Origin: Pandoraea apista
Lineage (GTDB): Bacteria > Pseudomonadota > Gammaproteobacteria > Burkholderiales > Burkholderiaceae
Assembly (NCBI RefSeq): GCF_001465595.2
Contig: NZ_CP013481.2
Location: 1,984,001-2,048,000, forward strand
Direction of reading: 5' to 3'
DNA length: 64,000 nt
Shown here: piece after piece, positions 57,246 to 60,046 of the stretch
Layout: each line of letters begins with the position of its first letter
Numbering within the stretch: the first letter of the stretch is position 1
The notes under the pieces: model-generated
What the model saw: the letters and a program-made list of their open reading frames with translations, nothing else
Database searches by the model: none
Told to the model about the DNA's origin: nothing
Program-made: the position numbers and the translations under genes

Positions 57246-58001
57246 TTAGCGTTTTCGTGGGTAGGCGCTGTGGCTCGGCTTCTCCCACCACTCATCTGCA
57301 TTCTCTCCATAGCGGAACTCGCTCAGCTTAGGTGCTCGCTTGAGCAGCGCGGGGCCGTCCATTTTCGGGTTCAGCACATGCTGCGTGACCCGTGCCCACT
57401 CGAAGGCATTTCCCATCATCGTGTGACGAGCGAGTATGTCTCGTTCTCGCGGCGCCAGGCCGGGGGCGAGCCAGAAGCGTGCTTGCTCGCCGGCCAGGGT
57501 GACCGGTACGCGCGGCGTCAGCTCAGCCAGTTTGCCTGGAGCCGAGGCTACCAGCACAGAGAATCCAGAGACGGCCGACCAGTACACCGGTGCGCCGAGA
57601 GCGAGTAGAAACACTGGCTCGCCGTTGCGCGGGCGGACATGCCAAGCCTCTCTCTCATTTCCCTTCCCAATCACGATCGTCCAGCCGCAAGCGCACACCA
57701 GATATCGATGGTGCTGCCAAGCCTCACTGAAATAGGGCTTGTCTGCGGCCGTTTCCGCTTGAGCGAAAGGCTGCCGGCCATATCGCTTTCCAAGGTCATT
57801 GTCAGGGGCGAATCCCCACTGAGCGACGTTGATGTTCAGGGCACCGCTATCGCTTCGGAACGCAAGCGGGACCAGGTCGCCGGGCATCATGTTGAACCCT
57901 TTGCTCGTGTCACCCTGGAATCGCTGATCGACGCGGTCAGTCTCGCCCAAGGCGCGAGCATAATCAGCGCGGCCGCGAGCGCGGATGATTCTGATATCCA
58001 T
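57246..58001 (-). CDS. SRAP (YedK/HMCES) family pseudoenzyme
   Basis: 251 residues that align with SRAP proteins along their length: RIIRARGRADYARAL near the N-terminus, then QWGFAPDN, FAQAETAADK, WQHHRYLVCACGWTIV, EPVFLLALGAP and GFSVLVASAPGKLAELTPRV. Yet each known catalytic residue differs: Cys2 is Asp2, the NARxET Asn is Phe79, the Glu of GWxEW is Ile109 and the His of HxRMP is Thr162. No upstream ATG restores Cys2, since in-frame stops precede the start. It is likely a non-covalent relative. It is second in an operon with a LexA box. Confidence 0.78.
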   Translation of the reverse strand: MDIRIIRARGRADYARALGETDRVDQRFQGDTSKGFNMMPGDLVPLAFRSDSGALNINVAQWGFAPDNDLGKRYGRQPFAQAETAADKPYFSEAWQHHRYLVCACGWTIVIGKGNEREAWHVRPRNGEPVFLLALGAPVYWSAVSGFSVLVASAPGKLAELTPRVPVTLAGEQARFWLAPGLAPRERDILARHTMMGNAFEWARVTQHVLNPKMDGPALLKRAPKLSEFRYGENADEWWEKPSHSAYPRKR

Positions 58002-58013
58002 GACGCACCGCTA

Positions 58014-58271
58014 TTACGCCGCGGCGTACTCATCGAGTGCCGGAGTTCTCCCATGCTGGAACAGGACCTTCGGCGACTCCATCGCCCCAGTCTCCGGATC
58101 AAGCAGGACTTCGTAGGCTGCTATGCCCGCGTGCCGGTCGCGCATTGAATGGGCGACGCGCACGGCGCCGGCGCTCGTGCTGGCCGGCCTCACCTCAACA
58201 GGCAACAGGTCGCCCCCTGACCCTTTGCGGAATGGGACGACGATAAATCTGGGGGTGTGGGGGGCTTGCAT
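58014..58271 (-). CDS. Unknown protein, first gene of the LexA-box operon
   Basis: 85 residues from ATG 58271-58269, with GAGGT upstream. MQAPHTPRFIVVPFRKGSGG is followed by LLPVEVRPASTSAGAVRVAH and AGIAAYEVLLDPETGAMESP. Beta-rich, soluble, no recognised domain. It ends 12 bases before the SRAP-like start, so the two are co-translated. The SOS box lies 47 bases upstream, implying induction by DNA damage. Confidence 0.7.
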   Translation of the reverse strand: MQAPHTPRFIVVPFRKGSGGDLLPVEVRPASTSAGAVRVAHSMRDRHAGIAAYEVLLDPETGAMESPKVLFQHGRTPALDEYAAA

Positions 58272-58308
58272 GGCGACCTCTCTCGGGTGACTTCGAGGGA
58301 GGTAAACT

Positions 58309-58337
58309 ATCATAAGATACTGTATAAAAACACAGTA
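58309..58337 (-). promoter_or_regulatory. LexA (SOS) box and promoter of the SRAP-like operon
   Basis: TACTGTATAAAAACACAGTA (58318-58337) matches the E. coli LexA consensus at 17 of 20 positions and has a perfect CTGT-N8-ACAG core. A leftward -10 TATGAT lies at 58309-58314, so the box sits in the -35 region and LexA would block the promoter. It is 47 bases from the 85-aa gene start. Confidence 0.85.
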
Positions 58338-58436: not shown

Positions 58437-58841
58437 TCAAGCTTCATGGGCAAGCGCCTCCAAAGCGACGCGAGCGAGAAAGCCGCTACGGGTCTCATGG
58501 CGTTTTTCAACGTAAGCATCGATCTTGTGAAGGACGAAGCGCGGGAAGCTAACGTTGATGCGCTCCGGTTTGCTATCAAGCTTTGTTACATCGACATCTG
58601 CTAAAGCCCAAACGGCGCCAGCAAATTCCTCACGCTTAGCCAAATCCTCGATGTCTGAGCAGGAAAACGTCACATCTTCCGAATACTCAAGCGACGTTTC
58701 GATATGGCCTTTGATTGCTTCCTTTGCATTCCTGATGGCGTCGTCGATGGTTTCGCCCCAGGAGAAGCAGCCCGGAACATCCGGCACTGTCACTCCATAG
58801 ACACTCCCATCATCCTTATGAATTGCGATGGGAAATTCCAT
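58437..58841 (-). CDS. hicB: HicB antitoxin
   Basis: 134 residues from ATG 58841-58839, with AGGAGT six bases upstream. The N-terminal domain (IAIHKDDGSVYGVTVPDVPG, then CFSWGETIDDAIRNAKEAI) is the degraded RNase H-like HicB fold that binds HicA. The C-terminal ribbon-helix-helix (ERINVSFPRFVLHKIDAYVE, then RSGFLARVALEALAHE) binds the operator. It neutralises HicA and represses the operon. It is downstream of hicA. Confidence 0.92.
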   Translation of the reverse strand: MEFPIAIHKDDGSVYGVTVPDVPGCFSWGETIDDAIRNAKEAIKGHIETSLEYSEDVTFSCSDIEDLAKREEFAGAVWALADVDVTKLDSKPERINVSFPRFVLHKIDAYVEKRHETRSGFLARVALEALAHEA

Positions 58842-58915: not shown

Positions 58916-59095
58916 TTACAGGCCGGCGGCTTTCAGGATGCTTTTAACAGTCCCAACTGGCAGATCCTTCTTCGGGTGAGGCACCGTCACAAGTAGCGGC
59001 TTCGTTGGGTGTTTAAAGTGGTGGTGGCTGCCAGTGATTCGCGCTAACTTCCAACCATCATCTTCGAGCATCCGGATGATTTTCGATGAATTCAT
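58916..59095 (-). CDS. hicA: HicA toxin (mRNA interferase)
   Basis: 59 residues from ATG 59095-59093, with GGAG upstream. KIIRMLEDDGWKLARITGSH, then HHFKHPTKPLLVTVPHPKKD matches HicA, a dsRBD-like mRNA cleaver; the catalytic His is His24 of GSH. The downstream antitoxin and the palindromic operator complete the system. In a prophage it probably stabilises the element or acts in phage defence. Confidence 0.92.
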   Translation of the reverse strand: MNSSKIIRMLEDDGWKLARITGSHHHFKHPTKPLLVTVPHPKKDLPVGTVKSILKAAGL

Positions 59096-59208: not shown

Positions 59209-59838
59209 ATGTGCACAAACTACCGGGTACCGGATCGGCAGTTGTTCAGCGAATACTACGGCGTGCCGCCGCCGATCGGCGAGTGGCGCGACGAGGTCTA
59301 CAAGGACTATTTCGCCCCGATCATTCGCCGGGACGGCGAGGGGCGGCGCTCTGACTTGGCGTCGTTCGGGATGGTGCCGCGCGAGAAGATCCCGCCAGGC
59401 GTGAAGGTGTTCGACACAATGAACGCGCGCGCCGAGACGGTGGGGGAGAAGCGCAGCTTCAGCAGCGCGTGGAAGAAGCAGCAGCTTTGCCTGATCCCGA
59501 CACAGGTTTTCCGCGAGCCGAATTACGAGACCGGCAAATCGGTATGGTGGGACATCGGCCTAGCCAGCGGTGAGCCGTTTGCGCTTGCCGGTCTATGGCG
59601 CGAGTGGGAGAGCGACGGCGGCCCGCGCTTCTCTTTTACGATGCTCACGCTCAACGCAGACCATCATCCGCTGATGAAGCGATTCCACAAGCCGGGGAGT
59701 GAGAAGCGGTCGGTGGTGATCATCAAGCCGGCCGACTATGACGACTGGCTCGGTGCTCGATCGATGGACGAGGCGCGGTCGTTCGTGACGCTGCCGGATG
59801 CTGACACAATGACTGCGGCGCCAACGCCGAAATCCTGA
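59209..59838 (+). CDS. SRAP family protein, catalytic residues retained
   Basis: 209 residues from ATG 59209, which makes Cys2 the N-terminal residue after Met removal. MCTNYRVPDRQLFSEYYGV, then MNARAET with Asn72, IPTQVFREPNY with Glu103 and HHPLMKRFHKPG with His160 keep the SRAP active site. YedK/HMCES proteins crosslink to abasic sites in single-stranded DNA and protect them. It diverges from hicAB and is the rightmost gene before the tRNA. Host or prophage origin is not settled. Confidence 0.85.
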   Translation: MCTNYRVPDRQLFSEYYGVPPPIGEWRDEVYKDYFAPIIRRDGEGRRSDLASFGMVPREKIPPGVKVFDTMNARAETVGEKRSFSSAWKKQQLCLIPTQVFREPNYETGKSVWWDIGLASGEPFALAGLWREWESDGGPRFSFTMLTLNADHHPLMKRFHKPGSEKRSVVIIKPADYDDWLGARSMDEARSFVTLPDADTMTAAPTPKS

Positions 59839-59934
59839 CGTCAAAAGTGCACAGGGACTGCCTACCTGTGGTGGTTGATGCAGATGACCTTCATGGTGTT
59901 TTGCGGAAAACTCCATGGATTGCGGAAAACAAAA
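59839..59934. other. Possible attachment or arm-site region with direct repeats
   Basis: TTGCGGAAAAC occurs twice (59901-59911 and 59920-59930), 19 bases apart in register, between the SRAP gene and the tRNA terminator. Such short direct repeats can be integrase arm sites, but no integrase gene is in view. No gene is seen here. Confidence 0.35.
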
Positions 59935-59960
59935 AGGGGTTGCGATTTCTCGCAACCCCT
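59929..59960 (-). terminator. Terminator of tRNA-Lys (leftward)
   Basis: On the minus strand an 11-bp stem AGGGGTTGCGA / TCGCAACCCCT with GAAA loop is followed by T residues. It lies 11 bases beyond the tRNA 3' end. Confidence 0.85.
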
Positions 59961-59970
59961 CGAATTCGTT

Positions 59971-60046
59971 TGGTAGGCCGTGCGGGATTCGAACCTGCGA
60001 CCAACGGATTAAAAGTCCGCTGCTCTACCAGCTGAGCTAACGACCC
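59971..60046 (-). tRNA. tRNA-Lys (UUU)
   Basis: 76 bases with encoded CCA. On the minus strand it reads GGGTCGTTAGCTCAGCTGGT at the 5' end, anticodon loop CTTTTAA (anticodon TTT), GGTTCGAATCC T-arm and CGGCCTACCA 3' end. Acceptor, D, anticodon and T stems all pair. The 3' half faces the prophage, as at tRNA integration sites. Confidence 0.98.

Follow-up and report, generated by a model that had tools for sequence, protein, structure and literature searches.

Within the 64,000-nucleotide stretch of Pandoraea apista DNA analysed here (the window; contig NZ_CP013481.2, positions 1,984,001 to 2,048,000 of the forward strand), we examined a two-gene operon encoding a small protein, P0002, and a SRAP-family protein, P0001, in which all four catalytic residues are replaced. 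On the minus strand the order is a LexA operator, 46 bp of leader, the P0002 gene and, 12 nt past its stop codon, the P0001 gene. The operon is housed in the right arm of a prophage that also contains terminase, portal, head, sheath, baseplate and endolysin genes. At the same prophage end, 1.2 kb from the P0001 start and on the opposite strand, lies an intact SRAP gene, P0003, which an earlier reading of the window (the original prediction) did not mention.

Table 1. The operon and neighbouring features, in window positions.
Feature	Position	Strand	Remarks
LexA operator TACTGTATAAAAACACAGTA, palindromic	58318..58337	-	46 bp upstream of P0002 start
Leader, operator to P0002, with inverted repeat	58272..58317	-	
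P0002, small protein of 85 residues	58014..58271	-	genus-wide; LexA box upstream
P0001, pseudo-SRAP of 251 residues, catalytic C2/N75/E105/H160 replaced	57246..58001	-	SRAP fold; conserved C-terminal tail
P0003, intact SRAP (Cys2, Asn72, Arg74, Glu103, His160)	59209..59838	+	same prophage end
HicB-like antitoxin	58437..58841	-	between operon and P0003; Pfam PF15919
HicA toxin	58916..59095	-	operon context; Pfam PF07927
tRNA-Lys	59971..60046	-	beside right prophage end

In both ancestry and fold, P0001 is a member of the SRAP superfamily. It matches the Pfam profile PF02586 with 76.8 bits (cut-off 27.1) over residues 25-211, and its predicted model displays the SRAP (BB1717-like) fold, bearing out the original description of a SRAP homologue behind an unknown 85-residue gene. 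YedK of E. coli and HMCES are SRAP proteins (PF02586) that cross-link to abasic sites. Relative to YedK, P0001 carries Asp2 for C2, Phe79 for N75, Ile109 for E105 and Thr162 for H160. These four losses, claimed by the original prediction, recur in all five full-length members of the P0001 family, which have Asp at the Cys2 place and F, I/V and T/A/M at the places of N75, E105 and H160 in the alignment; the pocket replacements are hydrophobic in 5/5 (Thr for His in two). The substitution of the His motif by Thr162 thus stands, but not its rendering as HxRMP, since YedK reads HDRRP. Further losses are R77 (Q81), W106 (V110), T149 (V151) and D161 (P163), while R4, N37, P40, W62, R99 and R164 (= R162) are kept in P0001's own numbering. 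Because it is without the residues that define an abasic-site enzyme, P0001 is not filed as a functional SRAP. The family is also basic, with an isoelectric point of 8.8-9.5 against a median of 5.4 for viral YedK-type SRAPs, and ends in a family-specific C-terminal tail, ..APK..G...DEWWEKP, in which APK, G and DEWWEKP are invariant and the predicted local distance difference test (pLDDT) score is below 50.

A protein search with the family alignment scored only the 7995 candidates with the most shared words and recovered nothing beyond the family itself and a single truncated relative. The comparison set of 42 viral SRAPs aligned with P0001 came from 80 kept loci of at least 557 relatives; these were retrieved by MCGR or INA[RK]VE patterns, and their Cys2 and Asn75 are therefore no independent test. 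Among the best matches, 24 of the 25 loci outside the genus were read (L235 excepted), with the Glu105 region judged by eye because the scripted alignment was off there: GW[FY]EW is visible in 23/24, and Arg occupies the His160 place in 1/24.

The ratio of nonsynonymous to synonymous substitution (dN/dS) among three P0001 orthologues is 0.134-0.153 (dS 1.25-2.21), inside the range seen for intact P0003 genes (0.080-0.182), and by this measure the P0001 family still shows purifying selection. In the tree it forms one supported clade with a long stem (2.41) and short inner branches, grouped with YedK-type proteins and not with P0003, although long branches leave its exact position uncertain. These separate branches led us to reject the idea that P0001 arose recently as a copy of P0003, with the same reservation about placement where long branches meet.

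The operator, TACTGTATAAAAACACAGTA, matches the consensus TACTGTATATATATACAGTA at 17 of 20 positions (three mismatches), as first reported, and no second site of this quality occurs in the window (shuffled sequences give an expected 0.00). The host genome holds six sites at no more than three mismatches and the backwards control none; another of the six, also 17/20, precedes genes whose translations read as imuA-imuB, a known SOS pair. A box identical to that of the operon also stands at G000:C1:3738071 of the same genome. The LexA-regulon test found a CTG-N10-CAG operator in the promoter region, conserved across P0002 orthologues, and the box lies 45-47 bp from the start in 29 of 33 Pandoraea-type P0002 copies (31 or 50 bp in the rest). 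On these sequence features, the case for a LexA operator ahead of the operon is strong. The leader's inverted repeat could, with weak support, cover the Shine-Dalgarno sequence: its arms pair in 79.1% of cells versus 41-50% in slid controls, and in P. pneumonica both arms are changed yet still pair, but the covariation score of 0.104 is not above that of the slid controls (up to 0.120).

Judged by its distribution, P0002 is the conserved core of the operon and P0001 an optional second gene. P0002 relatives occur in 28/32 genomes of the genus, in 30 of the 299 genomes sampled from the family (the 28 already counted and two from a single further genus) and in 1/321 of the class-wide sample, namely the host genome itself. 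A LexA box lies within 100 bp upstream of all 33 full-length copies in the genus (11/11 prophage-type and 22/22 chromosomal-type), counts that exclude six chromosomal copies, the N-terminally truncated prophage copy L039, which has no LexA box, and other fragments; both relatives in the other genus are likewise preceded by one. No Pfam, PHROGs or NCBIfam entry matches P0002, and a fold search gave weak matches only, which does not in itself show a new fold. A defence-family search returned no match for P0001, P0002 or P0003.

Relatives of P0002 are also found in an Agrobacterium phage (Rivra), rhizobial plasmids and viral contigs. The alphaproteobacterial LexA motif is given as a GTTC-N7-GTTC direct repeat in an earlier study (PMC3323433). 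A GAAC-N7-GAAC box (= GTTC-N7-GTTC) is present at 5/7 phage and plasmid loci, and the alphaproteobacterial box occurs at 40/40 rhizobial-type viral loci (0.06 expected). These 40, which form 15 clusters at 90% identity, are the tested part of 47 loci, the other seven being without upstream DNA; we infer from similarity that their hosts are rhizobia. With CTG-N10-CAG boxes in one group and alphaproteobacterial boxes in the other, the P0002 family is therefore tied to LexA through two operator designs. The same study also names hypA and hypB, two unknown betaproteobacterial genes in LexA predictions (PMC3323433).

Full-length P0001 occurs in 3/32 genomes of the genus. Three further genomes carry remnants of it, and the host genome has one at another site. 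This last is a C-terminal remnant at L049:8346-8513 (G000:C1:3770345-3770512), a few kb from genes read as selA-selB. Damaged copies include L008, with a frameshifted end, and the truncated relative P0056. Elsewhere among Pandoraea prophages, the position behind P0002 is often taken not by P0001 but by a gene for a 99-residue protein (for example L051:9184-9483, minus strand; no clear family). In G004, G021 and G024 the P0001 end (about residues 203-251) lies directly behind this 99-residue gene, and P0001 therefore seems to have been replaced there. The reverse arrangement is seen in P. pneumonica, where P0002 is absent and P0001 starts 48 bp past the LexA box behind the same leader; the box upstream of P0001 is therefore independent of P0002. 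The conserved small partner originally proposed thus stands as a conserved neighbour but not as a dedicated partner, as P0002 is far wider spread and usually lacks P0001. An obligate partnership was rejected on P. pneumonica and on the prophages that have P0002 and no P0001.

P0003, four of its orthologues, two rhizobial SRAPs and the Rivra SRAP retain Cys2, Asn, Arg, Glu and His in 8/8 rows. An intact P0003-type SRAP lies within about 2 kb of P0001 in 3/3 genomes. A SRAP search of the host genome yielded P0001, P0003 and one P0003-type remnant only, and 21/32 genomes of the genus have no SRAP match at E ≤ 0.001. Outside the genus, 26/47 rhizobial-type viral loci, and Rivra as well, have a same-strand SRAP gene downstream of the P0002 relative; the 20 of these 26 that were read as open frames, and that of Rivra, by eye keep the Cys2, Asn-Arg, Glu and His motifs. 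This apparent link is present in 8/15 viral clusters (90% identity). Because these viral loci are mutually related, the 26 are not independent events. Against the link, no SRAP lies within 2.5 kb of the P0002 relative at the six rhizobial plasmid loci, and the chromosomal-type Pandoraea copies of P0002 that were examined have no P0001, P0003 or 99-residue gene in the flank. In Rivra (L242:2797-4125), genes of 66 and 158 codons stand between the P0002 relative and the SRAP gene; the longer product is rich in cysteine pairs and zinc-ribbon-like by eye, and neither has a Pfam family.

The tRNA-Lys side is probably the attachment side of the prophage. Positions 59926-60018 of the window recur as a 93-bp exact copy at G000:C1:3723179-3723271 of the same genome, on the opposite strand. 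The open frames of the window read as two consecutive sets of phage structural genes, at 1-24400 and 24853-60046; on this open-frame reading two prophages probably adjoin here, the gene scan having covered the second set alone.

We tentatively favour a reading in which the operon serves the Pandoraea prophage as an accessory cassette under DNA-damage control and P0001 is a reversible, non-covalent nucleic-acid binder. RecA-triggered cleavage of LexA would lead to production of both P0002 and P0001. P0001 would then bind single-stranded or lesion-bearing nucleic acid reversibly through R4, R99, R164 and its more basic surface, forming no covalent cross-link and serving, next to the catalytic P0003, as a competitor or as a shield that can be taken off again; P0002 would be a co-induced SOS protein rather than an obligate partner. 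Nucleic-acid binding by P0001 is favoured by its SOS setting, by the arginines it has kept and by its shift towards a basic charge. A wider proposal, which we regard as somewhat doubtful, is that the P0002 family together with SRAPs makes up a so far undescribed SOS effector cassette, carried by temperate phages of two proteobacterial classes and adapted to the LexA operator of each host. In Pandoraea prophages its SRAP member would have changed from a covalent cross-linker of abasic sites into a non-covalent factor acting alongside the phage's own catalytic SRAP.

Several observations weigh against the favoured reading. Arg77 and Trp106 are lost along with the catalytic residues, which, like the hydrophobic nature of the pocket, points instead to a protein as ligand; the pocket, composed of F, I/V, V/I, T/A/M and V/L/M, suits peptide binding or core packing at least equally well. 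A Trp kept in 42/42 viral proteins is lost at P0001 position 68. Our alignment also places one of the two arginines that PMC3765255 proposes to touch DNA among the residues lost in P0001. The YedK N75A substitution has a modest effect, and loss of the Asn alone is hence of little weight. The dS values among orthologues (1.25-2.21) are high, which makes dN/dS rough, and the frameshifted L008, the truncated P0056 and the three remnant-only genomes indicate that P0001 is often lost. Finally, the linkage of P0001 to P0003 may be a shared position in a variable prophage arm.

An alternative that we consider rather unlikely is that P0001 acts by protein contact through the hydrophobic former pocket or the C-terminal tail, for example by regulating P0003 or recruiting a repair or replication protein. 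The pocket replacements shared by all five family members, the invariant segments of the low-pLDDT tail and the P0003-type SRAP near P0001 in 3/3 genomes fit such a role, but full-length P0001 is absent from the genomes that hold four of the genus's seven intact P0003-type copies, and P0001 and P0003 lie on different SRAP branches. It is unlikely that the effector proper is P0002, acting in SOS feedback by modulating LexA, RecA or prophage induction, with P0001 a passenger in an exchangeable second position. P0002 is indeed widespread and LexA-linked; its chromosomal-type copies examined have no P0001, P0003 or 99-residue gene in the flank; and the second gene is often the 99-residue one, with the P0001 end left behind in G004, G021 and G024. 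A precedent is GIL01 gp7, which reportedly binds host LexA (PMC4551915). Against this, P0001 has a dN/dS of 0.13-0.15 and persists without adjoining P0002 in P. pneumonica, and no fold match of P0002 points to a LexA or RecA binder (weak evidence).

That P0001 is a decaying pseudogene or a sequencing artefact of an ordinary SRAP is very improbable and was rejected: truncated and remnant copies exist (the L008 frameshift, P0056 and others), but the same losses are shared by separate genomes at 64-76% identity, which excludes a sequencing error, dN/dS of 0.13-0.15 contradicts decay, none of the four other members found in the P0001 family has Cys2, and the P0004 cluster represents 15 sequences. 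The originally suggested inhibition of the host's own SRAP, for which the kept scaffold might speak, is scarcely credible and was rejected for this host, since the genome search found no intact host SRAP besides P0001 and P0003 as a target and 21/32 genus genomes have no SRAP match, though other SRAP-bearing hosts are conceivable.

Apparently kept by selection and placed behind a LexA operator, yet stripped of its chemistry, the P0001 family sets the function of the SRAP scaffold apart from cross-linking. It offers a natural control for studies of YedK and HMCES and lets the idea of a repair enzyme turned to a new purpose be tested. The P0002 family is clearly a candidate SOS gene that has gone unannotated, and its role is directly testable. 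Among the listed titles and abstract beginnings of open-licence papers, we found none describing the operon or a naturally Cys2-less SRAP. New here are the P0002 core with its LexA boxes of two operator designs, the optional P0001 and the nearby P0003.

Compared with YedK and HMCES, P0001 has C2, N75, E105, H160, R77, W106, T149 and D161 all replaced, is basic where the viral YedK-type set is acidic, carries an extra conserved C-terminal tail and is encoded by the second gene of a LexA operon. SRAPs are defined by this Cys at residue 2, which PMC3765255 terms absolutely conserved. Like F116 p67, pAN_25, phi2LM21 p58 and SPBc2 yoqW, P0001 is the product of an accessory SRAP gene of temperate phages, and an integrase gene is found in the stretch around the phage or prophage SRAP in 4/6 loci; the phage and prophage SRAPs read (yoqW and phi2LM21 p58 not among them) keep Cys2 and the other catalytic residues, whereas P0001 does not. 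P0003 and gene 30 of the Agrobacterium phage Rivra resemble P0001 in being SRAP genes near a P0002-family gene, but P0003 and the rhizobial phage SRAPs have intact catalytic residues (8/8) and lie on a different SRAP branch. P0002 in turn may be an analogue of GIL01 gp7, a small protein in an SOS-linked phage setting that reportedly acts on LexA (PMC4551915).
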